From a virus, in the IMG/VR virus record IMGVR_UViG_3300025872_000252, positions 1-27,137 of that record: 27,137 bases of DNA, one strand, 5' to 3'. Below, in pieces: positions 1,527-27,137 of the stretch (the first letter of the stretch is position 1; the number at the start of each line of letters is the position of its first letter). A model generated the notes under the pieces. That model was not told the origin of the DNA and made no database searches. It saw nothing but the letters and a program-made list of their open reading frames with translations. The position numbers and the translations under genes were made by a program.

Positions 1527-2017
1527 GACTGAGTGTCCTCCCACATAGTAATCCTAATATAGCCTGGGTTTGGCCAATTTTGATTATTTATGGATCCAAT
1601 GGAGACACCACTGGAGTTAAAGTCTGCCCCCTGATCAATATTGTTTAAGGTCAATACCGTTCCAGAAGTTCCTCTAGTAACGGTCATGTGGCATTGACCG
1701 GCACCAGAAACGCCACGAATAATGCGGTTTGTGACGTCTGAGGTTTTGGAGGTATAATTGCGCATGCTGCCGGTAAGCGTAGAAAACACGTTTACAGCAT
1801 TCGTATTGCTATCCGTTGTCTCGACCATGATGTTGCCGATGATAAATGGAGTGGCTGTAGTCGTCTTAGCTCCAGTTCCACCGGTAGTGGCAATCCACTG
1901 GGTCTGCACTGCTGCGCCAGTAGGACTATTCCAAGTGCCATCTCCACGTAGAAACGTGGTTGACGATGGGGTGCCCGTTGCTTTAATCTGTGATGCAGTT
2001 ACTTGTTCAATAGCCAT
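1523..2017 (-). CDS. Tail-fibre tip or fibre-associated protein
   Basis: A 164-aa protein encoded straight after the tail fibre, with a TAATG stop/start overlap and an AAGGGA ribosome site. The N-terminus has the module ATGTPSSTTFLRGDGTW (residues 13-29), a motif found near the ends of many phage fibres just before the C-terminal receptor-binding or trimerisation part. The rest is rich in Thr, Ser, Asn and Gly, predicted beta, and has no motif I recognise. It may be a separate fibre tip, a chaperone-like partner, or the detached C-terminal domain of the preceding fibre. A related motif occurs in the distant fibre gene at 23611-25044. Confidence 0.65.
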   Translation of the reverse strand: MAIEQVTASQIKATGTPSSTTFLRGDGTWNSPTGAAVQTQWIATTGGTGAKTTTATPFIIGNIMVETTDSNTNAVNVFSTLTGSMRNYTSKTSDVTNRIIRGVSGAGQCHMTVTRGTSGTVLTLNNIDQGADFNSSGVSIGSINNQNWPNPGYIRITMWEDTQS

Positions 2018-3447: not shown

Positions 3448-3449
3448 TG

Positions 3450-6400
3450 TCATTGCTCCATGTCAGTACCGAGCATAAGTCTCGAATACCACGTATTGAA
3501 TAGGGGGGTGTGACTGCTGAAGAACGAGTAGTCCCGCTCTCCTGTCTTTTCATCGCTGAACAAGACACGGTTGAACTGATTGAACGACTGGATCATCGGA
3601 CCAAAGATGTTGTTTCCTCGCATGGACATTCCGTAATCGCTGGAGAACGAATTCACCACCGACAGAGCTGACGAATGATGCGCACCCAGCCACGGGGACT
3701 TGATCGCATTGCCCATCACGAACTTGACAGGATCATCGTTCCAATCCTGTTCCATCTTGTCTAGATCCGATTTACCCGTGGCGATTCCTCGCACGGATTG
3801 ATAGATATTCTCACCAAGCATTACGGCTGCAAACGTGGCAAGCATTGTTGCCATTCGGCCATTGGCCGCTGTCCTGAATGCCACGTTGGTTGCAAACGAC
3901 CTGCTGTAGCTGGTGAGGTTATAGAACATCTTGTCAATGGCCGACCGTGATTCAACGGACGACGCCAGACTTGAAGTAGGAACGTGGAAATTATGAGCCG
4001 CAGTCAGGTAGTCCATCATGGCGCCCATGGTTCGGTCGTCAACACGACCACGCAGAGCACCAAGATTAAAGACCTGTTCCTGTCCCGCCAACCCATTTCG
4101 AAGGTTCCTGATCACATCTGGAACAAGGAGACCTGAATGGTTCATCTGCAGTGCAACATCATGAGGAAGTCCGGAGTCAGCAGCGGCTTGCTTGAATGCA
4201 CGCCTTGCCGAATCTGTATTCTCAGCGACATTGCCAATGCGTTCCAGTGCAGTAGCCATTCTCTCCATTGCATCAAGACTACGGCTGACAAACCGCTTGG
4301 CCTGTCGATCCGCAATTACTCGAGCAATTCCTGAGAAATATTGCATACCTCCAGCACGCATTCCTGTTTCTCCGAACGCCTCGGCAGCTGCAACAATGGA
4401 TCCTGAGAGTCTACCCATTGGAGTTCCTCCATTGGTCAGTACCTCAGCTCCGGTAGCCACATGCCAGAATCGTTCCCACGGAGCAATGAATCGTTCAGTG
4501 ACTGATGTTCCGACAGACGATCCAAACGCAGAGTGAGCATAGGTGGAATACTGATCCGTTGCGTGAGCAATGTCTTCAATTGCTCCAAGATCGTTAGACG
4601 TACGAATAGCGTGTAGTGCGTCCATGAATCCATGCATGAAAGATCCGCCGTACATCTTTGCTCCCCAGATTGCCCTGGGAACCTCAGTAGTAAGACCTGC
4701 CATGCCCCAGAACGATCCGGCACTGCCACGAACAATTCCAGTAGATACCCGCAGTGCGGGATCCAGGAATTCATTGTGATTGTACTGTGCACGTCCTACG
4801 TGGTAGTTCCACTTTCGTTCAAGACGATCAACACCACGGTTGAACTCCGCCCTGACGGATGAATCGGTAATTGTAAGCGAATGCTGTCGCATTGCCGCAA
4901 TGACGTCATCAAACGTAGAAGGAGAACCAACTGCTTCAGAAAGCTGCGCATCAAATAGAATCTGCGGAGCTCTGACTTCCATGTAGATCTTGTGCTCTTG
5001 GACAGGAGATCCGATATACCAACGCCTTACGGCTGGATTATTGGCCACCTCATCTTCAAGCGAACGAGCAGACTTAGACCTGGGAGTGTTGGATGCACGA
5101 CGGTATCCAACGCCATTTTCGGTAATTCCATTCGTCAATCTACTAATAGTTTCGACTGCCATTTCATTTGAATAAGTGGTCAGTCGTGCAGCATATGTGG
5201 CCTGATCCTCAGGAGACAATGCAGACCACGACGTTCCACGTGCAATGCCGAATTCATCGGCAAGTTCATTTGGAATGGCGTTTCCGGAAGTACGGATACG
5301 TTCAGCATATGCGTTTGCAAAGTCAGCCTGCGCTTCCTGCTGACGAGCAAGAATCACATTGCTGTTTGCCTCTCGAGGACGATAGTTCTCACGGCTGACT
5401 CCTGGGTGCGAAATTTCCAGACGCGCACCAACCTCGTCGTAGTGACGACGGAGGATGTTGTGCATCTCCAACTCACCTGGAGTAAGGCCAGTGGTAACTC
5501 CTGTGTCAAGAGCATTTTGAATGTTGGCATCAGACATCGTGTTAAGATGTCCATTACGAATAGCCCGTTGTTCTGCAACAGCAAGTTCGTTGACCGCAAT
5601 GCGGCCACGATCCCTGAAGTTCTGCAGAGTACGCAAGGATCCGTTGTTGAATCCGAGACTCTTCACAAGAGCCTCGGGACGATCCAACATGTTGAATGCA
5701 GCTACCATCATGTCCAGAACTCGACTGGAATTATGAATGTAGCCGAATCCGGTTCCGGCGGCCTGAGCCCGGAACAAGGCGCGTCCTAGACCACGAAGGG
5801 CCGGAATGCGACCCATGGACATCAACACTCCGTTTGTAATTACAAGGCGTTCCCCAGAAGATTCCTTTGGAAGAAGCTTCTCGAGAATAGTAGATGCCTT
5901 ATCGGGAGCATCTGCCTCTACCTTGCCACCGACCTTGGTTGTTTCCTTGGTCGGCTTGGAAACAGACAGACCATCAGCAGCATCTGAAACAGCGGCGTTT
6001 TCATACCTGACACCCTGTGGTGCTGCGGCTGCAGCGCGAGCTGCGGCCACATCGGCATCCGATTCCAGTACGGCTTCCAGCTGCTGCTGATCGCTCATTG
6101 CCCTACGGGCCTTGATATCAGCTTCAGTTACAGCAGCGGATGGCTTCTTAGAAGGCATGGTTGGCTTTGTCGGCAGTGCCGCCGCTGCCGTATCTACTCC
6201 TTCTCGAACAGCAACATCCTGAGCAGCGGCCTCAGCCACTGAATACTTAACATTGCGTCCATCCATAGTGACAGTCATAAGGGTTTCCTTAGGACGTCCT
6301 TCTAGGGCTGCACGTTGATTCTTTATGAAGAAATCCTCGAGAGCAGACCACCTAGGAAGGCGGTTTGCATCTCCATACTTCGCATAAAGCCTACGGTTAA

Positions 6401-14846: not shown

Positions 14847-15454
14847 TAGAAGGGTCCTTGGGTTCTACGCGCTCCAATAGTAGGCCACGCGCTCTTTGTA
14901 TTGCTGGTAAACGCCGAGACGTCGCGAGAACGCATGTCTGCGGCTCGACTCTTGGCTCGAGACATGAATGCAATTTCTTGCAGCAGCTTGTCCTGGGCTG
15001 CCTCTCCAACGGTAGCCATCTGGTACATTCGAGCCGCCTGATCGACGATCTCAAACTGCTCTGCAGTCGGAAGAGATTCAAACTCAAGCGAGGTTGTGAT
15101 TCGAACGTTGATGGCGGTTCCTACCGTGAAGACTTCCGTATTGTTGTCGACGTCAAACAGATAGGTAGGATTTCGTCCACGCTGGACAAGATTCCGGCTG
15201 TAATCGGTTCCAATAGTGTCGACGGACAACGTATTGTCTGGAATCCAGATTCTTCCGTTGATGTCAGGAAGAACCTCCTTGTCAACCGTGTTGCAGTTCA
15301 GTCCAGTGAGTTGGCACTGTAGAGCTACTTCGTCAAGAGTCTGAATTGCAAGGGTAACGTCGTTGGAGCCAGTAACGGAAAGAGTTGACACCGGGTACTC
15401 GCCCGATGCGCGAAGAATACGATTTACTGCGTCGAGTTTTGAAAGAGCACCCAT
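14846..15454 (-). CDS. Tail tubular protein A (gatekeeper)
   Basis: A 202-aa protein, close to the 196 aa of T7 gp11, the ring that joins the portal to the nozzle. Visible family features: LDAVNRILRASGEYPVSTL at the start, ALQCQLTGLNCNTVDKEVLP, then IWIPDNTLSVDT and PTYLFDVDNNTEVF, and a helical C-terminus with EQFEIVDQAARMYQ. It starts at ATG 15454 after a GAGGTA ribosome site and directly follows a terminator hairpin on the minus strand. It overlaps the next gene in TAATG. Order and motifs both fit, so confidence is high. Confidence 0.92.
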   Translation of the reverse strand: MGALSKLDAVNRILRASGEYPVSTLSVTGSNDVTLAIQTLDEVALQCQLTGLNCNTVDKEVLPDINGRIWIPDNTLSVDTIGTDYSRNLVQRGRNPTYLFDVDNNTEVFTVGTAINVRITTSLEFESLPTAEQFEIVDQAARMYQMATVGEAAQDKLLQEIAFMSRAKSRAADMRSRDVSAFTSNTKSAWPTIGARRTQGPF

Positions 15455-15465
15455 GATTACCTCAA

Positions 15466-15499
15466 GTTAAAATCCCCATGCGTCTTTCAACGCATAGGG
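15466..15499 (-). terminator. Rho-independent-type terminator upstream of tail tubular A
   Basis: On the minus strand a 10-bp stem, CCCTATGCGT paired with ACGCATGGGG (one G-U), has a six-base loop and is followed by ATTTTAAC. It lies between the second beta-rich small gene and tail tubular A, and would reduce transcription into the tail module relative to the capsid region. A smaller CCC/GGG hairpin lies just upstream at about 15513-15524. Confidence 0.75.
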
Positions 15500-15526
15500 A
15501 CGGGAGCGAAATTCCCCAAAGGGACA

Positions 15527-15919
15527 TTAGAGAATACGAGTCAGGCGGACAGCATAAGTAGCGCTTCCGGCAAGGGTCGTAATGACAAGAGAACGATTAG
15601 ACCGAGTGATTCCAAGCTGGTCGGCGGCTGGAGTTCCAACAACAACAGCATTAGCCGACGTAACAAGTGGAGTTGAAGTAGCAGAATTCATATAAATGAA
15701 TCCAGAAGCTGCTTGATTTCCAGCAGTAGTAACGTTTCGGGCTGCAATAGCAAACACAGCTGGAAAACAATCAGTATCCAATTGAGCTGTAGTATACGAA
15801 GTACCAGCGGTAAGCGTAAAATCAACAGCGTTAGAGGAAACCGGACCACCACGAAGATCAGGCTGGGCCACCGTAATCGTAGAGGTAGGATTAACAGTTC
15901 CAGTAGAAGTCAAAGGCAT
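15527..15919 (-). CDS. Small beta-rich protein after capsid, paralogue of its upstream neighbour (possible head decoration/fibre protein)
   Basis: A 130-aa protein rich in Thr, Ala, Ser and Val with alternating hydrophobic residues, so probably an all-beta fold. It resembles the 128-aa protein encoded just upstream (higher coordinates). Shared features: an NPxST opening near residue 10; a CFPAVFAIAARN block against SYPATFVAVPN; and endings of LVITTLAGSATYAVRLTRIL against VTYSVTRIN. No signal peptide or TM segment is seen. The ribosome site AAGGAA is well placed, and the gene lies between two terminators beside the capsid gene, pointing to an abundant structural product. Function is inferred from position only. 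Confidence 0.7.
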   Translation of the reverse strand: MPLTSTGTVNPTSTITVAQPDLRGGPVSSNAVDFTLTAGTSYTTAQLDTDCFPAVFAIAARNVTTAGNQAASGFIYMNSATSTPLVTSANAVVVGTPAADQLGITRSNRSLVITTLAGSATYAVRLTRIL

Positions 15920-15927
15920 GGTATTCC

Positions 15928-16314
15928 TTAGTTAATGCGAGTAACAGAATAAGTCACCGCTGCGGTAGCTGCTGCGGTAGATGCATTGGTAATGCTGATA
16001 ACGCCACTAGAAATAGAAATCACCACATGATCTGCAGTAGACGAAGCTGAAGTGGAAAATCCAGTGGTTGCTCCATGAACAACAACGGTGCTAGCATCGA
16101 CCGCGGTCATAAAACCCATGGTATCAAGCGTACGTGCTCCATTGGGAACTGCCACAAATGTAGCCGGATAGGATTCAATCTTAGGAAGACTGACAGCAGC
16201 CGCTGCAGTCACAGGAAGAGAAACCTGAAACGAGTCGTTAAGGCTTCCGCGAAAACCCGGAGCAAACGAAGAGGCGGTGGAAAACGGATTAAGCGTAGTA
16301 GAATTACTAGGCAT
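15928..16314 (-). CDS. Small beta-rich protein after capsid, first of a tandem paralogous pair
   Basis: A 128-aa protein, Ser/Thr/Ala/Val-rich with no charged clusters, likely a beta sandwich. It is the partner of the next gene (15527-15919): both are nearly the same length, share an NPxST motif near the start, an (S/F)P-A-x-F-x-A strand in the middle, and a V-T-Y-x-V-x-R-I type ending. The AAGGAG ribosome site overlaps the T tract of the terminator that follows the capsid gene, so read-through transcripts are efficiently translated. T7 has no equivalent. Head decoration, head fibre or minor capsid roles are possible; none can be proven from sequence. Confidence 0.7.
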   Translation of the reverse strand: MPSNSTTLNPFSTASSFAPGFRGSLNDSFQVSLPVTAAAAVSLPKIESYPATFVAVPNGARTLDTMGFMTAVDASTVVVHGATTGFSTSASSTADHVVISISSGVISITNASTAAATAAVTYSVTRIN

Positions 16315-16321
16315 TTTTACT

Positions 16322-16350
16322 CCTTAAAAGTTGGGGCCCCGAAGGGCCCC
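16322..16350 (-). terminator. Strong UUCG-loop terminator after the major capsid gene
   Basis: On the minus strand GGGGCCC-TTCG-GGGCCCC (16350-16333) forms a perfect 7-bp GC stem closed by a UUCG tetraloop, followed by AACTTTT. This is a textbook intrinsic terminator and is placed like T7 T-phi, just after gene 10. The rest of the 58-bp gap (16315-16372) holds only the capsid 3' trailer and the next ribosome site. Confidence 0.9.
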
Positions 16351-16372
16351 TTGTTCAGTCAATTACTAACTA

Positions 16373-17458
16373 TCAGTCGGCAAGGACTTCGAACGCGCAG
16401 TACGGACGGAGAACACCGCCGCCCATCAGCATCTTCGAGACCATAAAATCCGACTGACGACGAACGTCACGGAACTTCTCGCTCTGAACGCCCATCATCT
16501 GGAGAACAGCGATAGCGGTCTTCTGGAAAATCACGCCACCCGACTTAGAAAAGTCACCCTGGTACTTGGTAGGACCAGTCGTGATGTTAGACGAGGGAAC
16601 GTGATTCGAGCAGTACACGGGAACGCCAAGCACATCAATCGGGAGCTGGTAGCCCTGACTATCCTGAATGCGTGGGCCGGCAGCGCTTGTATCATTACGA
16701 CCCCAAAGTGCTTGCTTGTCAAGGTTAGTAGCAGTACCGCTATTACTAAACGGGAGACCCAGCCTACGAAGAGCGTAGTACAGAGGAACGTTAATAATAG
16801 CAACACGATCATTCACAGGAACGTCGTTCTGATCCATAACCTGACAGACATCACCGACATATTCAATAAACGCCGCTGCGTTTGCTTCCGTACCCCAGGT
16901 CGAAGGAGTACCACCGGTGACAGTAAAATCAGTATAGCCAGTAAGAGAACCAGCCGAGCTTTCAATACCGACGAGAACGTTACCACCAGCGGGGAACGAG
17001 TTTCGCGCCGTAGCTCCACCGTCAGCAGTGGTACGAGCAGCGTTGATCAGAAGGGCGCAGATCTTGCGATCCATCTGACGGGCAAGTTCGCGACCAGTTT
17101 CGCTTGCGAGCTCGTTGCGGACATCAAAGTGCGACATGGCGGTGTCGATGTCATCGACCTCGAAGTGAGCGACCAGCGGACGGTCATCCAGGCTGATTGA
17201 AAACTCCTTGGTCTCGACATCAAGGCCAAGCAGCTCGGTACCGGCTTCGTGGTATTCCGATCCAATCTTCCACGTAGCGGGGAACTTCATCGTCGTGCCG
17301 CTGGTGAGAGTCTTGTAGTTGACCTTATCAAGGAACTGATTGTACTCCTGGAAGGCAGTGAGAACCTCGCCGCCATAGACGGGGAGCCACATATCCGAGG
17401 GAGTGGGGGTAGCATTGGCAAAGTTAGAGCCAAAACGAATGAGATTGGTATTAGCCAT
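16373..17458 (-). CDS. Major capsid protein
   Basis: A 361-aa HK97-fold shell protein, like T7 gp10A (345 aa). Diagnostic stretches: YGGEVLTAFQEYN near residue 30 (T7 has FGGEVLTAF), then VDDIDTAMSHFDVRNELASE followed by TGRELARQMDRKI, matching T7 IYDIEDAMNHYDVRSEYTSQLGESLA. The C-terminal AVLQMMGVQSEKFRDVRRQ is also typical of the family. It starts at ATG 17458 after an AAGAAAG purine stretch and a repeated GATA leader, and a strong terminator follows the stop. It is preceded by a 187-bp hairpin-rich leader. No room exists for a T7-style 10B frameshift extension, since the next gene begins 58 bp on. Confidence 0.95.
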   Translation of the reverse strand: MANTNLIRFGSNFANATPTPSDMWLPVYGGEVLTAFQEYNQFLDKVNYKTLTSGTTMKFPATWKIGSEYHEAGTELLGLDVETKEFSISLDDRPLVAHFEVDDIDTAMSHFDVRNELASETGRELARQMDRKICALLINAARTTADGGATARNSFPAGGNVLVGIESSAGSLTGYTDFTVTGGTPSTWGTEANAAAFIEYVGDVCQVMDQNDVPVNDRVAIINVPLYYALRRLGLPFSNSGTATNLDKQALWGRNDTSAAGPRIQDSQGYQLPIDVLGVPVYCSNHVPSSNITTGPTKYQGDFSKSGGVIFQKTAIAVLQMMGVQSEKFRDVRRQSDFMVSKMLMGGGVLRPYCAFEVLAD

Positions 17459-17645
17459 CTATCTATCTTTCTTACATTAGAACATTGTTAAACCGCCTCT
17501 GCGTTGATTGTCGTCTCGAGGATTGTCCCGCACCATGCGGGGTCCGGACGGTCTCTGCTTTGGAAAAGCCAAGGGGGATTCGATACCCCCATACCCGATC
17601 AACGGGATCTTGATTAGATCATTGGCCAGCACGGCGAACCGTGCG
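17459..17645 (-). promoter_or_regulatory. Hairpin-rich leader upstream of the capsid gene
   Basis: This 187-bp stretch separates the membrane protein stop from the capsid start. On the minus strand it begins with a perfect GCACGG-TTCG-CCGTGC hairpin (17629-17644). A CCCG/CGGG hairpin follows (17594-17606), then a GGGGG/CCCCC stem followed by TTGGCTTTT, and a perfect CCCGCA-TGG-TGCGGG hairpin (17527-17541). In T7 the equivalent place carries the strongest late promoter and an RNase III site before gene 10. By analogy this is a candidate late promoter and/or mRNA-processing region, but I cannot name the promoter sequence. An ORF crosses it, but I judge it unlikely to be coding. Confidence 0.5.
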
Positions 17646-18140
17646 TTAAGTCTTATTGATGGTGGACCCGACTTCAAGGCCCTTGTTGTACGAATCCTGC
17701 TTTTCCTTTGCAACTCGAGCGTCTTCGCCTGGGCGCTTGAGAAGAATTCCACCGACAAGGGAAATAGCAGACATCAAGATTGCACCGCCTGGAATCCCAG
17801 CCGTTTCCTGACCAATGATGCCAATGCTCATGTCGGTTAGATTTCGGATGGTTGCATATCGTTCATTGGCGTCTTCAATAGCCGACTCGAACTTCTTGGT
17901 GTTGGAGTTGACATATGCAAGCCAATCCTCCCACACGATGTCCGCATTGTCAAGAGTAACCTTGTCACTCGGGGCGATGCCCACGGCAGTCTTGACTGGA
18001 GCTGGAACATTGACCTGCACAAACGATGCAAGGTTGCATCCCTGCAGAATCATGAGAACAGCAAATGCAACTACAATGATGCCGACAATAAACGCGGCAT
18101 GAGGCACATCCTTGATGTACTTCTTGATTTCGTTAATCAT
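17646..18140 (-). CDS. Two-TM membrane protein with lipobox-like LQGC, between scaffold and capsid genes
   Basis: A 164-aa protein starting at ATG 18140, which overlaps the scaffold stop by 8 bp. A start at 18251 would put 37 residues inside the scaffold gene and is rejected. A hydrophobic segment at about 14-34 ends in LQGC (Cys35), lipobox-like, followed by VQVNVPAPVK. A second hydrophobic, Gly-rich segment is at about 114-134 (GIPGGAILMSAISLVGG), then a basic, charged tail. It is neither a T7 core gene nor a virion protein I can identify. Holin, antiholin, spanin-like or inner-membrane roles are possible. Small membrane proteins with a PGG-type second TM recur near capsid genes of T7-like phages, as far as I recall. 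Function unknown. Confidence 0.75.
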   Translation of the reverse strand: MINEIKKYIKDVPHAAFIVGIIVVAFAVLMILQGCNLASFVQVNVPAPVKTAVGIAPSDKVTLDNADIVWEDWLAYVNSNTKKFESAIEDANERYATIRNLTDMSIGIIGQETAGIPGGAILMSAISLVGGILLKRPGEDARVAKEKQDSYNKGLEVGSTINKT

Positions 18141-18903
18141 TCTTGGTGTATCCAGTGATGCGAACGCGTTCCTGAACATAGTTCTGGTATTCGCTATCGT
18201 ACTTGTAGCGAGGATCTCGCATGGCAGCAACCATTTCCTTACTGCTGGCAAACGGCTTAATTCCGGCTGGAACCCCAGAAGATCCGACGATGCGGTTCTT
18301 TGGCTCTGGGTTCTGCATGTTGCGGCGGGTCTTTAGACCCAGCAGCACATTCTGCCATCCAGGTTGCTTCAACGACGCATTGACGGCTGCGCGTTCATCT
18401 TCCTGCAGGTTGTCGGTGGCCCATTGGATGATCTTATTCAACTCCTCAGGGCCACCGACGACACCAGCCGCCTCGGTCGCTAGCTGACGCTGCCTAGCTC
18501 GGATTCCATCAACATAGGTATCTAGGATCTGGTCGGGAATGCCGAACCGTGCCTTAATGGCCGTCTTAGTATCCTGGCTGAGGTTTCCGGTGCTCGAGAC
18601 CTCCATGCCCCACTTGTTCCACTCATCTTCGGAAAGTTGAGTCGGCTTCTCGGGGATGTTAAGGTCATTAGGCGTAGAAACTTCCTTTTCGGGAAGTTGG
18701 TCCTGAGATTCGATCTCAGGAGGGGTGTTTTTCTTTGCTTGCTGAAGCTTGGTGATCTCGGATCGCATATCCTTCCAAGACTTGATGAACTTCTCAGGAT
18801 CTCCCTTGAACTGCGGAGGCAGACTTCCGGGATTGCTTCGTGCAAACGTCTCGACGTTGTTAAGGTCAACGTCAACCTCGGGGGTATTTTCAGTTTCGCT
18901 CAT
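18133..18903 (-). CDS. Capsid assembly scaffolding protein
   Basis: A 256-aa, acidic, helical protein in the T7 gp9 position, right after the portal. The N-terminal half is rich in Glu, Asp and Pro. The C-terminus carries MVAAMRDPRYKYDSEYQNYV followed by a basic tail, the pattern of gp9-type scaffolds (M-x-DPRY-x-x-D-x-x-Y-x-x-x-V), which binds the shell protein. The start overlaps the portal stop as ATGA, with AAGGTAA upstream. It guides prohead assembly and is expelled before DNA entry. No protease domain is evident. Confidence 0.92.
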   Translation of the reverse strand: MSETENTPEVDVDLNNVETFARSNPGSLPPQFKGDPEKFIKSWKDMRSEITKLQQAKKNTPPEIESQDQLPEKEVSTPNDLNIPEKPTQLSEDEWNKWGMEVSSTGNLSQDTKTAIKARFGIPDQILDTYVDGIRARQRQLATEAAGVVGGPEELNKIIQWATDNLQEDERAAVNASLKQPGWQNVLLGLKTRRNMQNPEPKNRIVGSSGVPAGIKPFASSKEMVAAMRDPRYKYDSEYQNYVQERVRITGYTKND

Positions 18904-20462
18904 TGATTGTTACCTTGCATGGCGGCCTTGGCTCCTGTTTCAGCCATAGAACCAAGACTGCTGATCATCTGCTCAGAAGCCATAGCCTGAATGGATTGCT
19001 GAGCTGCTTCCTGTTGCTCTTCCTGGAGCTGCTGAGGTGTCTTGACAAGACCCACAGGTTCCAGACCAAAGCTCGAGGTCCACTTGATTGCCCATCCATA
19101 CCAGTCGATATACGGCTGAACGGCTTGCATTTGTCCGACCATTACAGCCCACTGAGAGAGTTGACTATTGGTCACTTCTCGGTTGAGAGCCTCTAGTCCC
19201 GTTCGAACCTTAAGATTCAATGGGCCCTGTCCTTCGACAAGCTTGAGGATCTCCGACGGAACAAGACGGTCTCGACCCATCAGAACAAGAACACGCTTGA
19301 CAATTGGAATCTGGATATCACGGGCAATGCCGCTGAAGATTCCACCGAGGGTCTGGTCGAGTTCCTGAGCCACCTCGCGGATTTCCGTGGCGGTGACGCG
19401 ATCTCCGGTGCGCTGCACGGAAGACTGCAGTAGAAACGTACGACCGAGCTGTTGGGTTAGGTCTGCCCGAAGAGCAGCCATGGGCCCAAGATCAATCTGC
19501 TTAAGCAGCTGAATTGGAAACACGTCTACCTGTCGGGCTGGAACAAAGTCACCGTTTTCGGTGTCCTGTAGATCGGCCACCTCGGTAATGCCGGTTGGGT
19601 CAATTCCAATACGGAACTCGGAGTTGGCGACAGAAGCTTCGACCAATGCCTTGGTGATGGCTTCCAACGTTCGGATATCGCCAATATGCTCTTCAACCAG
19701 CGAACGGCCGTAATCCTCACCAGCGATTCGCGACCACACCTGAGGAACGTAGGGGCAGATGTCATACGTGCCACTGTCCACCTGGACGCCGCAGTATTCC
19801 TTTTCCACTTCCCACTTCTTGGTGTCTTCGTTCCATTCGATTTCAGTGAAGAACGGCTTGTGATCCGACGATGGACCATCGCTGTTCTCGTACTCTGATT
19901 CCATCTTATCCGTCTCGGGCCAATCCTCCGGAACAGCATCGGGATCAACCCACTCTCGCAGTATGATTCGCTTGACGCGTCCATCTGGATACCGCTGCAC
20001 GACATATTGATCAATGCGGTGCACCCTAAACGAATATTCGTCTACAATCTCAAACAACGCGTCGCCGCAGATGATGAGATGCTGGAATAGAACAAACAAC
20101 TCCTGACGAAGATTTGTGGACGACAGCTTATCCATAATCTTGCGATCAAGACGGGAAAGCTGCGCCATGGTCTGGGTAGGGTCAGCACCCTCGGGAACAA
20201 AGGCCTGATCCAACTCAAAGTTGAAGAATGGGGCCTGGTTCAACGGGTAGATAGCAGAGACCATCCTAGAAGCCAATGCCATGACGCCTCGGGCAGGTAG
20301 ACTGCTGTATACGTCTGGAAGTTCCATGGTCTCCGTGAATCCCTCTTCAGGATACAAACCAGGAACCGTAAGACGAGCGCAATCTTGTGCTCGCTGAAGT
20401 TTATTGGCTCGTCGGCTGTCCAACCGATCGAACTCAACTTCGATTTCACCTTTTTGATTCAT
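18900..20462 (-). CDS. Portal (head-tail connector) protein
   Basis: A 520-aa protein comparable to T7 gp8 (536 aa), the dodecameric ring at the DNA vertex. Family features: a basic helical N-terminus, RAQDCARLTVPGLYPEEGF followed by YSSLPARGVMALASRMVSAI (T7: RAQNCAQYTIPSLFP...ARGLNNLASKLMLALFP), VHRIDQYVVQRYPDGRVKR, and TATEIREVAQELDQTLGGIF, which is near-universal in podovirus portals. The C-terminus is Gln-rich (QQLQEEQQEAAQQSIQ), typical of the barrel/crown. The ribosome site is weak (GGATGCAAC), and the stop overlaps the scaffold start. Confidence 0.95.
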   Translation of the reverse strand: MNQKGEIEVEFDRLDSRRANKLQRAQDCARLTVPGLYPEEGFTETMELPDVYSSLPARGVMALASRMVSAIYPLNQAPFFNFELDQAFVPEGADPTQTMAQLSRLDRKIMDKLSSTNLRQELFVLFQHLIICGDALFEIVDEYSFRVHRIDQYVVQRYPDGRVKRIILREWVDPDAVPEDWPETDKMESEYENSDGPSSDHKPFFTEIEWNEDTKKWEVEKEYCGVQVDSGTYDICPYVPQVWSRIAGEDYGRSLVEEHIGDIRTLEAITKALVEASVANSEFRIGIDPTGITEVADLQDTENGDFVPARQVDVFPIQLLKQIDLGPMAALRADLTQQLGRTFLLQSSVQRTGDRVTATEIREVAQELDQTLGGIFSGIARDIQIPIVKRVLVLMGRDRLVPSEILKLVEGQGPLNLKVRTGLEALNREVTNSQLSQWAVMVGQMQAVQPYIDWYGWAIKWTSSFGLEPVGLVKTPQQLQEEQQEAAQQSIQAMASEQMISSLGSMAETGAKAAMQGNNQ

Positions 20463-20474
20463 GTTGCATCCAAT

Positions 20475-22493
20475 TTAGAGACCAACTCGCATTGTACTGT
20501 CAATGAGATTGTTTCTCCAGCTATTGCTATCCCACGTTGATCCAGCGCCTGGAGTGTTTGGCGGCCTGGAGTTCACGCACATTACTTGAAATACATTACT
20601 AAGCCATTCTGTCAGCGTGGTGTAATCAACAGCAGTTGCTGGATTCCAGTTTCCTCTGATATTATCGTTGTAGAACGCAATTGTCGCAGTAGTCCACAAT
20701 CCACCTGTATAGGCATTTGGATTAGCGTCGAATGTAGCTTGATTCCACGTGGTAAATGATGTACTATCAGTTGGATTAGCATACCAAACCAAATAATTAC
20801 AAGCATTTTGACCTGTTCCTACTCCGCTGTAGTTACCAGTACCGACATCTATTTCATTGTATCGGTGACCCATGAACCAATCAGGAGTGATTGCTAGGGT
20901 GTAGAAGCCACGTCGACAGATACGATCATACCATGGCTTTGATGTATCTCCGCTTCTCCACTTGTAATCCTGGATCAAATCTGCGATTTGACAGAGATAG
21001 TTGTACCTAAAGTGCGGGGTGTATCCTGTATTACCAAACGGAACAAGGAACATATCACGCTGTTGAGTGTTTGTTTTTACAATGGACTCTACACCAAATG
21101 GTACCTTGGTCCAGTCGGTTACATATGAACCGTTCATCAAATGCACCCAACCAGCATCTCTGTTATTCAGCGACGCGTTAAACGTTGTGTTGGTATCTGG
21201 ATTGGAGAACCAGTCATACTGAGCATCTCCAAGCCATCCACCAAATCCATTCTTTGATTCCGATCCAGGGGTTCCGGTATAAGTTGCTGTTTCGTTTCCG
21301 ACAGATCCAACTGTCTTATACTTGTCGGGACGCGACTCGCATAGACACGGAACACCGCTTTCATTCAGTCTGGAGATAATATAGTAATCGGCTAGTTCAC
21401 AGAAATCTGTTTTATAGTTAAGCAACTTTTTCCAGTTGGGATCTGCTCCACCGCCAGGAGAAATACTACGATATAAATGAACAGTCGAAGGACTGGCCGA
21501 GAGAGCCGAGGCGTCTACATTGACTGAAAGAATGCCTTTCCCAGGGGCCCCCTTACACGAAACAATATTATTGATTGTTCGATCAATATGAAATTTGACC
21601 AATATATCGCCAGCAGCTGGATCTCCTCCTGCTTCTTCCCAGACCCTGTGCATTTCCTGACGATAGGCGGTATAAGATGAACAGCCATTCATATATAGAT
21701 GGATGTTCAATGGCTCTGTAATTGGCGTACGGCCATTTAGTGGAGTTGGGAATGTTCCATTGACAAGTTGTTTAATGGCTTCCCAGAAACCCTTCCATAA
21801 GCAAGCGGCTTGAAATGGGTTATTTCCACCGCTCCCGGTAAAATTGAACTGCCACTCAGATGGAGTCCCAAACCACGATGAATGTGACGTAATATCCGTT
21901 TCATTCATTCGATAGCCGCCAAACGGCATATAGAATTGAAACGACCGGAATCCAATCTTATAATCCTCGTAGATCAGTTCATACAAAAGATTGTGCCACG
22001 GACTGGTCGTGGTTGGACTCGATGGATTGAAATCGAATCCAGACGCAGGATTGGTAAACAAAGCGTTGTTAGGAGCAACGTTGTTGCCAAATGCCCGTAC
22101 ACGATCCACAGCATCAGCCTGTCCGTTGGCTGCTGCCGGAATTGACACAAACCGTCGAATAGCTCCCTCTACCCACCTAGGAATATTCAAGGTAGTTCCA
22201 TTACCAAGAGGACTACCGATCAACTTCAACGAGTAAAGCCTACTGTTGAGATCGGTCGCCATCTTCTTATAGTGCAGCGATTCCGGAGTAGCGGAATTAT
22301 TCAACACAGCGTATCCGTTTCCACCCCTGCTGGCAATTGCATTAAGGGCTTCGGCGGCTGCGGTGTATGAATCAAACTTCCTTACAAACTTGTTGTTGAT
22401 CTTCAGGATACAGCCAGAAGACGTCTGCACAATATCGTGGCTGTAGATAGCCGTATTAGGAAATGATCCTACTGATGCCTTGAATTCATTCAT
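20475..22493 (-). CDS. Large aromatic-rich protein of unknown function before the portal gene
   Basis: A 672-aa protein I do not recognise. The first 65 residues look like a small beta/alpha domain (IVQTSSGCILKINNKF, then a Tyr/Ala helix). The rest is very rich in Trp, Tyr, Phe, Asn and Gly, with recurrent strand-like segments that end in polar or acidic residues: FRSFQFYMPFGGYR, LNIHLYMNGC, ILVKFHIDRT, ILSVNVDAS, ADYYIISRL, GVPCLCESRPD and FYTLAITPDWF. That spacing is compatible with a (beta/alpha)8 barrel of the glycosidase kind, but this is inference. It has no TM segment. It sits where T7 has only small genes (7, 7.3). It has its own AGGA ribosome site. A virion or carbohydrate-active role is plausible. 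Confidence 0.7.
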   Translation of the reverse strand: MNEFKASVGSFPNTAIYSHDIVQTSSGCILKINNKFVRKFDSYTAAAEALNAIASRGGNGYAVLNNSATPESLHYKKMATDLNSRLYSLKLIGSPLGNGTTLNIPRWVEGAIRRFVSIPAAANGQADAVDRVRAFGNNVAPNNALFTNPASGFDFNPSSPTTTSPWHNLLYELIYEDYKIGFRSFQFYMPFGGYRMNETDITSHSSWFGTPSEWQFNFTGSGGNNPFQAACLWKGFWEAIKQLVNGTFPTPLNGRTPITEPLNIHLYMNGCSSYTAYRQEMHRVWEEAGGDPAAGDILVKFHIDRTINNIVSCKGAPGKGILSVNVDASALSASPSTVHLYRSISPGGGADPNWKKLLNYKTDFCELADYYIISRLNESGVPCLCESRPDKYKTVGSVGNETATYTGTPGSESKNGFGGWLGDAQYDWFSNPDTNTTFNASLNNRDAGWVHLMNGSYVTDWTKVPFGVESIVKTNTQQRDMFLVPFGNTGYTPHFRYNYLCQIADLIQDYKWRSGDTSKPWYDRICRRGFYTLAITPDWFMGHRYNEIDVGTGNYSGVGTGQNACNYLVWYANPTDSTSFTTWNQATFDANPNAYTGGLWTTATIAFYNDNIRGNWNPATAVDYTTLTEWLSNVFQVMCVNSRPPNTPGAGSTWDSNSWRNNLIDSTMRVGL

Positions 22494-22505
22494 GTGTGAT
22501 TCCTA

Positions 22506-22916
22506 TCACCAATCAAATGGATTACCAAAGTTTCTGGCAACCCCACCTAGATAGCCGCCAAGACCATCGTTATTGTGACGACGCTTCTTTGGAAGCTCTG
22601 GTTGAGTGTAGTTTAGTCCAAGATTGGGGGCTGAGAACCACGAAAGGTCCGCATGACGCTTGCCTTCGTACTTGGTAGGGTCAAACGTCGGGTCAAACTT
22701 GGCCGGAATGAAGAGACCTGCACTATCCATGGGAGCCCAGTCCTTATACTCGAACGACGATCGTGCTCCGTCTGCTCCGCTGGCAATCGTTTCGTATGAG
22801 GCAACGCGTTCGATGAATAGTCGTCTTTCATTTTCAAACTTTACTCGTTCGGCTTCAATATCGGCCTCGGTCTTGATCTGAGCCTTACTTGGGCCCTTGG
22901 GCATTGAGGTTGGCAT
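22506..22916 (-). CDS. Hypothetical protein, 136 aa
   Basis: Function unknown. The N-terminal half is a charged helix (ADIEAERVKFENERRLFIERV), the centre is acidic/aromatic, and the C-terminus has a basic patch KKRRH followed by a Gly-rich, aromatic tail (GLGGYLGGVARNFGNPFDW). The ATG at 22916 has an AGGTAAC ribosome site nine bases upstream and overlaps the preceding gene by 32 bp in another frame. An in-frame ATG at 22904 is a weaker alternative. It lies in the portal-proximal accessory block, and a minor head-tail assembly role (like T7 7.3) is possible by position only. Confidence 0.65.
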   Translation of the reverse strand: MPTSMPKGPSKAQIKTEADIEAERVKFENERRLFIERVASYETIASGADGARSSFEYKDWAPMDSAGLFIPAKFDPTFDPTKYEGKRHADLSWFSAPNLGLNYTQPELPKKRRHNNDGLGGYLGGVARNFGNPFDW

Positions 22917-23082
22917 TAGTTACCTGCCTTTCAGCAAGAGCCTTCAAAGTAGTGACAACACTGTATTGACCTGACCTGAAATCAATGTCCCGTAGGTCGA
23001 TTCCGCGAGTATCCATTACAGGAGTAAATCGCTGTTCCAGGAACATAAGCAACTCCTTTGAGATATGGGGAGTGGTGGTCAT
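22885..23082 (-). CDS. Hypothetical small protein, 65 aa
   Basis: A short protein with the pattern ISKELLMFLEQRF near the N-terminus and IDFRSGQYSVVTTLKALAERQ near the C-terminus. Small proteins with an SxELLxxLE..F and a GQ.SVxxxL block are common before the portal gene in T7-like phages, but no function is known to me. The start overlaps the preceding stop as ATGA. No TM or signal peptide is visible. Confidence 0.65.
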   Translation of the reverse strand: MTTTPHISKELLMFLEQRFTPVMDTRGIDLRDIDFRSGQYSVVTTLKALAERQVTNANLNAQGPK

Positions 23083-23543
23083 TTGAGTCTTGTCGCCTTG
23101 CTAGAGCTCGATAATTGTTTGAATAGTGTTGGTGAGGTGTGTGCGTCTACGTCAAGCCCCATTGACATCAGGATATTGGAAACAACCCTGACACACGCGG
23201 TACGTTGGGGTCTAAATGACACAAGACCGCTGTCAGCGGCCCTATGCCAGAATTCAGTCAGAAACAGCCACAGCGGACTGCTGGCTACATGGCCATCGCC
23301 AAGTAGCATTGCCAGTTCTATACTATGATTATCCGGGGTAATCTTAAAGGAGTGGACTGTAAAACGACCTAGATGACGTTCCACCGCCGCTCTGGTATGC
23401 CACTTAGAGGGCTGCCCAGCCGGAACCAGTAGGTAATATTCCCCATATAGAAGACCTACATGTACGGGTTTAAAGCCTTGAATGACCCCCGAAGCACGAC
23501 TAAGAGAGTCCTTAAGGTCTATAAAGTCTACCCTAATATCCAT
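23079..23543 (-). CDS. Unknown protein, possible permuted papain/NlpC-like thiol enzyme
   Basis: A 154-aa protein. Two blocks stand out. PVHVGLLYGEYYLLVPAG (His28) resembles the HVG-strand around the catalytic His of circularly permuted NlpC/P60 (YiiX-like) proteins. The block ACVRVVSNILMSMGL (Cys117), followed by HTSPTLFKQL, resembles their late catalytic Cys helix. If right, His28 and Cys117 would be the active pair, giving a small amidase/peptidase. No signal peptide is seen. The start has AGGA seven bases upstream, and the end overlaps the next gene as ATGA. It follows a 67-bp gap that may hold a promoter. Gene call is good; enzymatic role is a weak inference. Confidence 0.65.
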   Translation of the reverse strand: MDIRVDFIDLKDSLSRASGVIQGFKPVHVGLLYGEYYLLVPAGQPSKWHTRAAVERHLGRFTVHSFKITPDNHSIELAMLLGDGHVASSPLWLFLTEFWHRAADSGLVSFRPQRTACVRVVSNILMSMGLDVDAHTSPTLFKQLSSSSKATRLK

Positions 23544-23610
23544 ACTTTATCCTATTTCTAGAAAGAGTAAGGTGTATATACTGTATGGTTCCTCAGTAAG
23601 GGGCGGGTAA
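23544..23610 (-). promoter_or_regulatory. AT-rich gap between fibre gene and accessory block, possible promoter
   Basis: This is the only non-coding gap of more than 20 bp in the right-hand part of the window. On the minus strand it contains CCTTACT twice (about 20 bp apart) around GTATATACACC, and a TTACTG-15 bp-TATACA arrangement that only loosely resembles a sigma-70 promoter. No hairpin with a T tract is visible. It could drive the head module; evidence is weak. Confidence 0.25.
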
Positions 23611-25044
23611 TTACAGGGCCCGGACAAACACGGCTGGGACGTTACCGTTAGCCAGATCCGCTGTAGCGGTCGGGGTGGTCGTAAAGTTCCTCCATGTATT
23701 GAGAGTAACTCCAGTATGTCGAATCAAATTGAACTGATTGGCCGCAGTAGGATCGTTGCGCAAGCAAATGGCTCCAGTTGATGCAATAGCCCTGAGAGTA
23801 GGCTGAGTACCTGTGTTTGAGGCTTGAAGGCCAAACCAGTATTGCTTACCTTGTGAAAGTGTATAGGAAACCGTAACGGTCCTGGTTCCTGCGGTACTGG
23901 TTGAAATACTGCCAGAAGTCAGTACCGGAGCTCCAGTTGGCCAGCCATTTGCACCTGACTCGTAAATAGCAACTGCACAGTTGTTAGTTTGAGTGGTTGA
24001 CACATTAACAGCCAGCTGATCAATAGTTAGATTCTTATGGCAACGATATGGGGTATAATATGCAGTTGCGGCAGTCAACGCGAGGGTTGTAAACGCATCA
24101 TTCTGAACATTAGTTGTTTCATACCAGGTGCTAAGAGGAAGCACACGTGGATAGGAAAATGGAATCGACCATGTATTGTTTCCGCACAGGTAGGTGTCTT
24201 CCATTGGGGTTCCTGTAGCGGATAGTTCAGTTACACCAATAACAGCGGCATCAATATTCCATACGGTACCACCGGAAGAAACAGTAATATCACCCTTATC
24301 GCCGTCTGATACTCCACCGGATATAGAAGCCCACGTGCTGTCTCCGCGCAGAAACGTAAGAGAACTGGCTGATCCAGATCCAAGCCTGGCAGTATCTATC
24401 GTGCCGGATGTAATATCCGAAGTGCTGTGAACATGCGCAGTTGGAGTTCTTGAATCTGATAGACGACTATCGTTGCCAATGCAAACAGTAGATGCTGTCG
24501 ATCCGGTTGGAATCTGAGCTATATTAAAGGTACCGGAAGTTACATCAGAAGCGGCATGAACGTGAGCTAACGGAGTACGAGCATCAGATAGACGACCGTC
24601 ATTTCCGACGCAAACGGTAGAAGCGGTGGTTCCGGTTGGAATTCTGGCAATGTTAAAGGTACCAGAAGTTACATCTGCAGTAGTATGGACATGAGCCAAA
24701 GGAGTACGGGCGTCAGAAAGTCGACCGTCGTTTCCAATACAAACTGTAGAGGCTGTCGTTCCAGTCGGAATCTGGGCAATGTTAAAGATTCCCGATGTTA
24801 CATCTCCAGCCACATGGGTATGTGCCAACGGAGTACGAGCATCGGTAAGACGCGCATCGTTTCCTTGGCACACTGTACCCGCGGCTGTTCCAAAATTAGC
24901 TGCAATGGTTCCACTGGTGGTAATGGTACCTCCAGTAAGACCACTTCCTGCTGTTACCGATGTTACCCCTCCGCCTGTGGTTCCAGCTGCCTTTTTTGCG
25001 ATCTTTTCAATTTCATTCTGCTCAAGTCTATTGAACTGACTCAT
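23611..25044 (-). CDS. Repeat-containing tail fibre or spike protein with HxH motifs
   Basis: About 477 aa starting at ATG 25044, which overlaps the kinase stop as ATGA with GGAG eight bases upstream; an ATG at 25068 lies inside the kinase gene. A short helical N-terminus (FNRLEQNEIEKIAKK) and a Gly/Thr-rich linker precede four tandem 43-residue repeats (about 57-228) of the form TVCxGNDxRLSDARTPLAH-x-H. The repeats are followed by FLRGDSTW and a second ATGTP...NNTW module, then a beta-rich C-terminal domain of about 190 aa. HxH pairs recur at 75/77, 118/120, 161/163 and 204/206; in T4 gp37 such pairs bind iron along the trimer axis. The T7 gp17 anchor domain is absent. Confidence 0.82.
   Translation of the reverse strand: MSQFNRLEQNEIEKIAKKAAGTTGGGVTSVTAGSGLTGGTITTSGTIAANFGTAAGTVCQGNDARLTDARTPLAHTHVAGDVTSGIFNIAQIPTGTTASTVCIGNDGRLSDARTPLAHVHTTADVTSGTFNIARIPTGTTASTVCVGNDGRLSDARTPLAHVHAASDVTSGTFNIAQIPTGSTASTVCIGNDSRLSDSRTPTAHVHSTSDITSGTIDTARLGSGSASSLTFLRGDSTWASISGGVSDGDKGDITVSSGGTVWNIDAAVIGVTELSATGTPMEDTYLCGNNTWSIPFSYPRVLPLSTWYETTNVQNDAFTTLALTAATAYYTPYRCHKNLTIDQLAVNVSTTQTNNCAVAIYESGANGWPTGAPVLTSGSISTSTAGTRTVTVSYTLSQGKQYWFGLQASNTGTQPTLRAIASTGAICLRNDPTAANQFNLIRHTGVTLNTWRNFTTTPTATADLANGNVPAVFVRAL
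24361..24876 (-). repeat. Four tandem 129-bp coding repeats inside the fibre gene
   Basis: Four units of exactly 129 bp encode 43-residue modules with nearly the same protein sequence, while many third codon positions differ between units. They encode the metal-motif (HxH) shaft of the fibre. The last unit is the most diverged (TPTAHVH, TARLGSGSASS). Confidence 0.9.
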
Positions 25045-25673
25045 GACATAATCTCCATGTCTAGCCAAGCTGGTGCAAGATGATCTACTAGTTCTTTAAG
25101 CGTCTGCTCGCCGTGATGATTGGTAATGTAGTAATCAAACACATCCGGAAGATGACCATATGTATACATCATGGCCATCTTTTCAGATTCGTGCATGCGC
25201 CACTTGGCTCCCATATCCTTTAAACGTGATGCGCCATCTACAAATATCGTTGTTCCACCAAGGTCTGTGATTAGTTCAAGTTCGTTTAGATATCGCATAT
25301 CATCGAATATAATCACATATTCCTTGAACTCTCTGTTCCATTCATACTTATCCATGTGCATGTATTCTGCCTTTTCGGCATCGGCAAGACGTGCAATGGT
25401 CTTAATAGAGCGGTTCACCCAATAATCCGGACCCGTTATACCTGGCTTATAAGCGGGATCACGTCTAGACTCTCCCCACCTTTGAAGAGTCTTTCTGTAT
25501 AGTTCTGGATTAGTATCCTTGGATAAACCTATACGTTTAGCCGCTTCCTTCATAGGCTGGGCAAAAGACATTATGATTGGCTTTAGATCGTGATCCATGC
25601 ACCAATCATGGAGCAATCTAGCCGCAGTCGTCTTGCCTCCCCTGGCTACCCCAGCAAATGCTACGATAATCAA
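25041..25673 (-). CDS. Deoxynucleoside monophosphate kinase-like P-loop protein
   Basis: About 210 aa. The P-loop GVARGGKTT is at residues 8-16. Downstream are MSFAQPMKEAAKRIG, the LID-like RRDPAYKPGITGPDYWVNR, YVIIFDDMRY (Walker B-like) and FVDGASRL, an arrangement seen in phage dNMP kinases (T4 gp1 family). It would convert dNMPs to dNDPs for DNA synthesis. I chose TTG at 25673: it overlaps the ThyX stop (TTGA), has AGGAGA six bases upstream, and puts the P-loop at the usual distance from the N-terminus. An ATG at 25700 would add nine residues read within thyX. It works after ThyX in the same pathway. Confidence 0.82.
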   Translation of the reverse strand: MIIVAFAGVARGGKTTAARLLHDWCMDHDLKPIIMSFAQPMKEAAKRIGLSKDTNPELYRKTLQRWGESRRDPAYKPGITGPDYWVNRSIKTIARLADAEKAEYMHMDKYEWNREFKEYVIIFDDMRYLNELELITDLGGTTIFVDGASRLKDMGAKWRMHESEKMAMMYTYGHLPDVFDYYITNHHGEQTLKELVDHLAPAWLDMEIMS

Positions 25674-26308
25674 GCAATATCTCCTGTAAGGGCATTCCAA
25701 GAAACAGGAAACTTACTGTTGCAAATCTCCCCCACAAGTGCCGCGTACTTCCTAACTTCCTGCTGTGCGTGACTATCAATACGCAACCTATACATTCGCG
25801 ACCAAGCATACAGGCTTCCTGTCCAGATCCATTCAGTTAGTGCGGCCTGAGGCAGCACCATTCTTGCTTGCTCGGGGCACACACCGGCATTAATCATGTC
25901 TGTATATACACGCAATGCACAGGCGTACACATCATCTGCAGCATCCATAAAAGACTGATTCTCAGGGTGGGCCGTAGGGAGAGAACCCTGCTTTACAGAC
26001 GGAGCACGCTCACGCCACGTATCCGGATAGAAGAACTCAGGAAGAGTGTCGACATAGCGACGTGATACCTCGTTCCAGGCAAATCCAATCTGATGCTTTG
26101 CCAGCTGTCTGGCGATGAAGATCGGAGCGGTAAACCGCATTTGAACGGTGACGTGGGAGAAAGGAGACCAATGGTTGTGACGGGCAAGATAGTTGATCAG
26201 CTTTTCATTCTGATTGACCGTAAACATATCCGCAGTCTTATCCATGGAAACCCGAGCCGCGTCGCAGATCGTGTCGTCCGATCCCATGTGCATGATATAC
26301 TCTACCAT
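25670..26308 (-). CDS. thyX: Flavin-dependent thymidylate synthase ThyX
   Basis: A 212-aa enzyme that methylates dUMP to dTMP using FAD and methylene-tetrahydrofolate. Family features: ARVSM near the start, LINYLARHNHWSPFSHVTVQ (the substrate-binding H-x-SPF-H block), and ARQLAKHQIGFAWNEVSRRY, the variant of the ThyX signature usually RHRx7S. EWIWTGSLYAWSRMYRLR then carries the C-terminal binding arginines with the later HAQQEVRKYA. The start ATG at 26308 overlaps the polymerase stop (TGATG) with GGAG upstream; an upstream in-frame start at 26362 lies within the polymerase and is rejected. Next to polymerase and kinase it supplies dTTP for replication. Confidence 0.95.
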   Translation of the reverse strand: MVEYIMHMGSDDTICDAARVSMDKTADMFTVNQNEKLINYLARHNHWSPFSHVTVQMRFTAPIFIARQLAKHQIGFAWNEVSRRYVDTLPEFFYPDTWRERAPSVKQGSLPTAHPENQSFMDAADDVYACALRVYTDMINAGVCPEQARMVLPQAALTEWIWTGSLYAWSRMYRLRIDSHAQQEVRKYAALVGEICNSKFPVSWNALTGDIA

Positions 26309-27137
26309 CAGTGAGTCTCCGCCCAGTTGTTGCCGATCTTGTACTCGCCCTTGAGAGGGCACTTGAGTCCTAGGAATGTTCCAGCTTCTGTAATGGACTG
26401 CACAGCCATCTTGCCAACGTCGTCGGCAATCTCAGGATCACATTCAATCTGCCATTCGTCGTGTACGTTGGCCATGAATGCAAACCTACCAGGATGTTTG
26501 TCTCTCAGTTGTCCATACAGGATTGACAATGAAGCCTTCATCACTACGGCACCTGCTGACTGAAGAAGAAGGTTCAGGGCGCTATGCGCTGACCTGACTG
26601 GAAGAGGACGCTTGTCAAGTCCCTTCAGAAACCCACGCTGGGCTACGATAAACTCGAGATGCTGAAGAAGCTTGGCATACGCTGGAACCTGCTTCTTGAA
26701 CTGGGTCTTGAGTCTGTTGCCATCCTGAACGGATCCGCCTACGATCTTGCCTACCTTGGCATCGCCAGCGCCATACAGCAGTCCGTAGATGAACGTCTTG
26801 GCTTGATCGCGTGTCGACAGACCGGCCATGTTCTGATTGTGAGTGTGGACGTCTCCGTCACAAACTACATTGGCATATGCGCCATCGTCATAGTCGGCAA
26901 GATAATGAGCGAACATGCGCAACTCTAGACCACTGGCGTCCGCTCCGACCTGAACCCACCCAGGTCTGGTTGGCTTGAACAGTGCACGACACTGCGTTCC
27001 ATAGGGAGAACCGCAGCGTGGCACCTGTGCCATGTTTGGATCGCTGTGCGTCATGCGTCCTGAGATTGCGCCGTTGGTGTTAACCGAGCCGTGCACCTTG
27101 CCATCACGTGATTTTTCAACCCAGCTGGCCAATTGAC
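26308..27137 (-). CDS. DNA polymerase, family A (T7 gp5-like), 5' end cut by window edge
   Basis: The C-terminal 275 residues or so of a T7-type replicative polymerase. Motif A is VGADASGLELRMFAHY. The O helix/motif B is RDQAKTFIYGLLYGAG with the conserved Arg, Lys and Tyr. ALNLLLQSAGAVVMKASL follows, and motif C is NVHDEWQIE. The end GEYKIGNNWAETH mirrors T7 GKMGPNWAICH. The fragment reads continuously through the window edge, and GKVHGSVNTNGAISGRMTH with DPNMAQVP is also diagnostic. The 3'-5' exonuclease domain and start lie outside. No intein interrupts this part. Confidence 0.97.
   Translation of the reverse strand, partial: QLASWVEKSRDGKVHGSVNTNGAISGRMTHSDPNMAQVPRCGSPYGTQCRALFKPTRPGWVQVGADASGLELRMFAHYLADYDDGAYANVVCDGDVHTHNQNMAGLSTRDQAKTFIYGLLYGAGDAKVGKIVGGSVQDGNRLKTQFKKQVPAYAKLLQHLEFIVAQRGFLKGLDKRPLPVRSAHSALNLLLQSAGAVVMKASLSILYGQLRDKHPGRFAFMANVHDEWQIECDPEIADDVGKMAVQSITEAGTFLGLKCPLKGEYKIGNNWAETH

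Follow-up and report, generated by a model that had tools for sequence, protein, structure and literature searches.

A second fibre locus with a candidate N-terminal anchor peptide in an uncultured clade of T7-like phages

INTRODUCTION

Second receptor-binding proteins, encoded in addition to the first fibre and without a T7 anchor, are described for the KP32viruses and KP34viruses and for K1-5, K1E and SP6 in a study of these phages (PMC6872550). For Klebsiella and K1-5-like phages it is proposed there that an N-terminal peptide, 7 to 29 residues long, links the second protein either to the first one or to an adapter. The two fibre genes of KP34viruses are separated by other genes, and the second proteins of all these phages carry depolymerases, some of them predicted (PMC6872550).

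Here we analyze fibre2, a second fibre gene in a T7-like phage. Its product, like those proteins, is extra to a first fibre and lacks the T7 anchor, and it begins with a short conserved peptide ahead of variable sequence, as is the mark of the KP32/G7C type; as in KP34viruses, other genes separate it from the first fibre gene. It differs from those proteins in the peptide itself and in its gene site, which lies between the dNMP kinase and portal genes. In the library searched we found no paper joining the major tropism determinant with Autographiviridae, and the phrase "upstream of the portal" was absent among the matches listed.

RESULTS

Gene map of the window and its clade. The window, by which we mean the whole stretch of DNA analyzed, is a 27,137-base record of an uncultured phage with a T7-like gene set, and its main genes all lie on the minus strand. 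They begin with the C-terminal part of DNA polymerase A at the window end (26308 to 27132; PF00476, E 2.4e-34), thyX (25670 to 26362; PF02511, E 5.7e-44), the dNMP kinase gene (25041 to 25700; phrog_139, E 8.3e-21) and fibre2 (23611 to 25044). Three small genes, a gene for a 672-aa protein and the portal gene (18900 to 20462; PF12236, E 3.1e-50) follow, and then scaffold, capsid, tail tube and nozzle, internal proteins and a gp17-type fibre with the T7 anchor (2017 to 3453; PF03906, E 2e-17). We place the phage among the Autographiviridae-type (T7-like) podoviruses on the strength of a single-subunit RNA polymerase in the clade (6 of 12 records searched, several of them fragments, the window's own fragment being without one) and of T7-like portal, scaffold, capsid, tail tube and nozzle genes, all identified in the window; a gp17-type fibre with PF03906 occurs in 8 of the 12 records. 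The portal had no match at 60% identity or more among 2,546 phage records, megablast of positions 15000 to 27137 against phages gave no match, and two portal scans of genome_contigs, run as a host search, confirmed no relative.

T7 keeps the small virion genes 6.7, 7 and 7.3 between DNA metabolism and the portal, so the place of fibre2 is not in itself odd; those T7 genes, however, encode small proteins and no fibres. In six annotated, more distant T7-like phages, chosen by hand among 20 records listed of the 2,546, the interval from DNA polymerase/exonuclease to portal contains no annotated fibre; two of the six have larger low-complexity ORFs there that are unlike fibre2 by eye.

The fibre2 gene and its coupling to the dNMP kinase gene. 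The fibre2 reading frame runs on the minus strand from an ATG at 25044 to a stop at 23611 to 23613 and encodes 477 aa; the initial annotation gave no strand, and the plus-strand frame across the same interval is full of stops. Tail-protein families match it strongly, mainly over its repeats (phrog_2012, E 3.2e-52; phrog_1197, E 5.9e-44; phrog_21962, E 2.5e-42), while no Pfam family, enzyme families included, rises above its cut-off. The initial annotation had described a fibre-type gene coupled to the dNMP kinase gene by an ATGA overlap, about 20 kb from the gp17-type fibre and without the T7 fibre anchor, and these points hold: the kinase stop and the fibre2 start share exactly the bases 25041 to 25044, the distance from position 3453, at the edge of the gp17-type fibre gene, to position 23611 is 20.2 kb, and PF03906, present in the 2017 to 3453 gene, was not found in fibre2 at an E value of ≤1. 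The overlap recurs in relatives. Across 17 kinase/slot junctions checked (the slot being the stretch behind the dNMP kinase gene), ATGA was found in 13 and TTGA in 2 (L020 and L029); the overlap in L022 is a single base (TAATG), and the slot frame of L019 begins 36 bases after the first base of the kinase stop. This coupling suggests co-translation of the fibre with the kinase.

Five segments can be distinguished in the protein, all encoded on the minus strand. Residues 1 to 18 (MSQFNRLEQNEIEKIAKK; 24991 to 25044) form a peptide, conserved across slot proteins, that is a candidate virion anchor, and residues 19 to 56 (24877 to 24990) a Gly/Thr-rich linker with a VTSVTAGSGLTGGTITTSGTI stretch. 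A stalk of four 43-residue repeats, starting at residues 57, 100, 143 and 186, spans residues 57 to 228 (24361 to 24876) and contains the main part of the PHROG tail matches. Next come a junction with a TFLRGDSTW motif (residues 223 to 276; 24217 to 24378) and a C-terminal tip, predicted to be a beta-sandwich (residues 277 to 477; 23614 to 24216). SDARTP-type repeats like those of the stalk occur in Mycobacterium and Gordonia phage proteins (51 to 69% identity over 21 to 37% of the protein in the 40 matches listed); these are annotated as minor tail or hypothetical proteins, and, unlike the stalk, the tip was unmatched in the phage collection.

The junction shows short similarity to a small gene behind the gp17-type fibre (1523 to 2017, minus strand; phrog_18673 tail fiber, E 1.2e-4): blastp gave 62% identity over 21 residues at E 0.004 in a very small database, and an FLRGD-TW junction is common to the two window proteins. 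Homologues of this small gene lie behind the gp17-type fibre in G001, G002, G004, G005 and G008, with the region's genes not recovered in 2 of the 7 other records (G003 and G007). It is possibly a tip subunit or an exchanged module.

Occupancy of the slot among relatives. A portal scan of viral_contigs yielded 25 loci, 15 of which span the stretch behind the dNMP kinase gene (L009, L011, L013 to L017, L019 to L022, L024, L026, L027 and L029); among the rest, L010 and L012 begin inside the slot and eight stop short of it. The slot is occupied in all 15 covering relatives, and each ORF starts with the same kind of peptide, 13 of the 15 fitting one motif expression and two (L020 and L029) having a TTG start and a looser peptide. 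The 15 include near-duplicates (L009/L011/L026, L015/L016 and L020/L029) as well as L024, a near twin of the window with identical slot-region proteins, and reduce to about 11 distinct cases. The fibre2 locus is thus real and conserved. Downstream of it, a conserved gene (23079 to 23543, minus strand; 34 to 46% identity in relatives) belongs to no Pfam or PHROG family that we could find.

One relative lacks the fibre. L005, added by a scan with the dNMP kinase, has only about 70 bases between the kinase and the next gene, and the first bases of the window's gap behind fibre2 (23544 to 23610) resemble, by eye, the stretch directly behind the kinase stop of L005. A FastTree analysis of partial sequences of the polymerase, kinase and portal places L005 with L014 to L016 (support 0.99). 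Because the absence is nested within the clade, loss of the slot fibre is the simplest reading, and since L005 is without the gene, fibre2 is dispensable in at least one relative. The same kinase scan found L006 to L008, which are distant; L006 and L007 carry other genes at the site.

These observations bear on an earlier suggestion about the locus. Separate acquisition of the gene by this phage had been proposed; the synteny and the tree do not support it, and we reject a recent acquisition. Base composition (48.3% G+C in fibre2 versus 49.3% in the window) lends it no support. It is the part behind the anchor that changes between relatives. The slot itself is old in the clade, and only the distal modules look exchanged.

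A conserved N-terminal peptide at the slot. The initial annotation called the mode of attachment unclear; the N-terminal peptide, conserved at the slot across the clade, now offers a candidate answer. Its consensus-like form is MSxFDRIEQxEIEKIAKK, with M1, F4, R6, Q9 and I12 invariant, and it is probably a helix. Mean pairwise identity among 12 slot proteins falls from 66.2% over residues 1 to 18 to 43.2% over 19 to 56 and 38.1% over 57 to 100, and then to 30.0% (101 to 230), 27.8% (231 to 290) and 22.5% (291 to 477), the later figures being inflated because unrelated sequence is in part aligned there. When viral_contigs was scanned with a degenerate DNA pattern encoding the peptide, 13 stretches matched, all of them at the slot. 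This pattern was written from these same slot sequences and misses L017, L020, L022 and L029; 11 of the 13 matches are on contigs already known to belong to the clade, and in the other two, L063 and L065, which are new, the slot is preceded by polymerase, thyX and kinase genes. A 31-residue tblastn query against the phage collection, a weak test, found nothing. Judging from its conservation, we regard the peptide as a candidate virion attachment element.

A short conserved N-terminal peptide ahead of an exchanged distal part is also described for KP32viruses (PMC6872550), and it raises the possibility that fibre2 docks as a branch on the gp17-type fibre, as modelled for second receptor-binding proteins of the KP32/G7C type. 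This arrangement would be a special case of a virion fibre. Against it, the peptide sequence and the genome site both differ from the KP32 type, and a Pfam scan of the 2017 to 3453 gene at an E value of ≤1 returned only PF03906 and a sub-cut-off YadA stalk. The T4gp10-like docking domain was thus not found in the gp17-type fibre, which speaks weakly against a branch, the published assignments having come from profile-profile searches. We consider a branch on the gp17-type fibre doubtful.

Variable stalks and tips behind the peptide. Behind the anchor, the stalks and tips of slot proteins are unrelated and include tail repeats, collagen, Mtd_N and SO2946-like domains, among others. Collagen repeats (8.8e-40) occur at the slot of L021, where Mtd_N (3.5e-15) lies on a second ORF; SO2946-like_C lies at the C-terminal end of the L013 (4.2e-18) and L017 (1.7e-12) proteins; and L015 has phage tail repeats (PTR; 9e-16) and another tip. 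No PHROG matched the L019 and L017 proteins at an E value of ≤0.001, and the L022 ORF with the anchor-type start has only 95 residues. Tip types do not follow the tree, since the tips of L013 and L014 align as one type although the two loci are on different branches, whereas the sisters of L014, L015 and L016, have another. Nor is the one-protein logic universal, because the L009 group splits anchor and tip into separate ORFs, with an anchor protein of 173 aa and a window-type tip on a third ORF. Three fibre-like ORFs stand in a row at the slots of L009 (606 to 2748) and L021 (1826 to 4067), with VDGG-like peptides at the C-terminal end of several of these ORFs; the peptides may be tails on which the next subunit docks.

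Measured by identity alone, the slot does not exceed the gp17 tip in variability: the gp17-type fibre shows 30.7% identity in its tip versus 72.9% in its anchor (six records), and slot residues 291 to 477 show 35.2% in five phages in which both fibres were aligned. The difference at the slot is that whole folds change.

Structure and relatives of the tip. A model of the tip, built from residues 277 to 477 with three relatives (4 sequences), is of moderate confidence, with a pLDDT of 60 overall and about 70 to 82 in the beta-sandwich core blocks. Its best fold match was chain Z of the cyanophage A4 capsid unit (PDB 9jwb; Z 12.9, rmsd 3.8, 151 residues by VIA-align), followed by mycobacteriophage Douge central fibre gp20 (Z 11.8), the Bxb1 tail tip (11.4) and the phi812 baseplate (9.6), with carbohydrate-binding and other beta folds lower down. 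A profile of the tip sequence had a single match in the PDB, again 9jwb_Z (E 6.3e-7), which by sequence is ORF25 of Anabaena phage A-4L. Searched alone against the phage collection by tblastn (E ≤ 0.01), the tip had no match; this is a blunt test, since A-4L is present there. Central fibre and baseplate domains of Douge bound M. smegmatis and not E. coli, and the domain matched here may or may not be among them (PMC13033339).

The A4 match makes a position on the capsid a serious rival for the docking site: the N-terminal peptide might dock on the capsid shell, with the tip decorating the head for reversible adsorption. Such a head fibre would likewise be a sub-case of a virion fibre and is compatible with our main reading. 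Not only is the sole PDB profile relative of the tip part of a capsid asymmetric unit, but A-4L is itself a podovirus whose record shows T7-like gene names in a T7-like order. ORF25, however, is a stand-alone protein of 202 aa without such an N-terminus or a stalk, its gene adjoins a tail fibre gene, and the next fold matches of the tip are tail proteins. A head position for fibre2 thus seems to us improbable, though worth weighing.

Transcription signals around the slot. Expression at a time different from that of other tail genes had also been proposed. We searched the window and G001 to G004 for 13-mers that occur at least 3 times and whose copies span more than 2.5 kb. The window and G002 had none, G001 and G004 had one such word each, and G003 (L019 and L050) had one element. 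The G003 element (GTCCACCTCATAGGAG), promoter-like and 16 to 24 bases long, occurs on the minus strand at 40276, 16473, 10447 and 6443 as three exact copies and one changed, always intergenic and in coding orientation. One copy follows the slot fibre gene, one follows a 595-aa ORF, one lies in a gap near 10430, and one separates the RNA polymerase gene from the next ORF. For two copies with ≤3 mismatches in the first 20 kb, the chance expectation was zero in 200 shuffles. The element looks like a phage promoter and, as it stands between the slot fibre and the next gene, the slot fibre of G003 would end the unit in front of it. This one relative hints that the slot fibre may be transcribed with the metabolic genes. 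The proposal of separate timing gains indirect support from G003 and none from the window and three other records, which gave no such repeat in this search. Gap elements from the window (two), G002 and G004 have no second copy in their own records, and the one from G001 has only an inverted partner in the same gap. Window positions 22000 to 27137 contain 7 sigma-70-like sites against 6.6 expected and 4 terminator-like sites against 3.8 expected.

Coupling to a metabolic gene, the promoter-like element behind the slot in G003 and the loss of the gene from L005 would also suit a protein made with the nucleotide genes that works inside or outside the infected cell, a released decoy being one example. 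Half of the refuting case named in the initial annotation holds: relatives do have the gene at this locus, but no role outside the virion is known for it. Several slot proteins have fibre domains, and the relative of the tip is modelled in a virion. We therefore regard a non-virion role as very unlikely.

Other conserved and variable features. A structured non-coding element lies just upstream of the capsid gene (17470 to 17655, minus strand), and an element at the same place is present in L009, L013, L014, L016, L017, L019 and L029. Its first part is tRNA-like, with an acceptor and a T-arm but lacking the usual anticodon loop, and a second conserved fold comes after it. Among 8 sequences, 23 of the 43 predicted pairs covary, with changes on both sides. 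Rfam gave no match in the window at an E value of ≤0.5, and ARAGORN gave none in the 8 sources. Of 16 stretches matched by a pattern scan, 15 are on contigs of the fibre2 clade and one is L080, and Rhizobium phage RHEph01 has an annotated tRNA-Asn between its scaffold and capsid genes.

Proteins of 627 to 672 aa are encoded near the portal in only some relatives, at two different positions and with 35 to 44% identity (window 20475 to 22493, minus strand; L012 1483 to 3357; L015 5199 to 7187; L016 4904 to 6892; L065 in part). The 672-aa protein of the window had no PHROG match at an E value of ≤1, only a sub-cut-off NUMOD1 in Pfam and no relative in the phage collection, and its model (pLDDT 34.5) was too poor for a structure search. 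Its site is a putative second variable cargo site. Two small genes between capsid and tail tube (15527 to 16314, minus strand) show mostly 30 to 52% identity in relatives and are less conserved than their capsid and tail-tube neighbours; a head decoration role is possible.

DISCUSSION

We think it probable that fibre2 is a second virion receptor-binding fibre occupying a modular slot. Two lines of evidence point to the virion: slot ORFs carry typical fibre domains, and the tip is homologous to a protein modelled in the virion of A4. Docking by the N-terminus is favoured because the order of peptide, linker, stalk and exchanged tip matches the second receptor-binding proteins of Klebsiella and K1-5-like phages. 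In the mechanism that we propose, the peptide of residues 1 to 18 would dock on a conserved virion component, with tail or connector slightly preferred over capsid, and the flexible Gly-rich linker and repeat stalk would carry the C-terminal beta-sandwich tip, which may bind a cell-surface glycan; the fibre would presumably be trimeric. Between relatives the anchor and, mostly, the kinase coupling would be kept while stalk and tip are replaced.

A more specific hypothesis is that the slot serves T7-like phages as a dedicated site for plugging in capsid-mounted receptor fibres: one peptide would dock unrelated stalks and tips on the head, and expression would be early, together with the nucleotide genes. 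We hold this to be unlikely. If it were true, the head of these phages would take part in cell recognition alongside the gp17 tail fibre.

As a second virion receptor-binding fibre, fibre2 defines, in an uncultured T7-like clade, a likely second host-recognition locus with a portable 18-residue anchor. The pattern of retained anchor and exchanged distal parts suggests that the slot is a site where other distal parts can be plugged in to change the surfaces that the virus grips. For annotators, it would mean that receptor-binding proteins should be sought inside the DNA-metabolism region as well, and the 18-residue peptide would be a short handle whose docking partner is directly testable.
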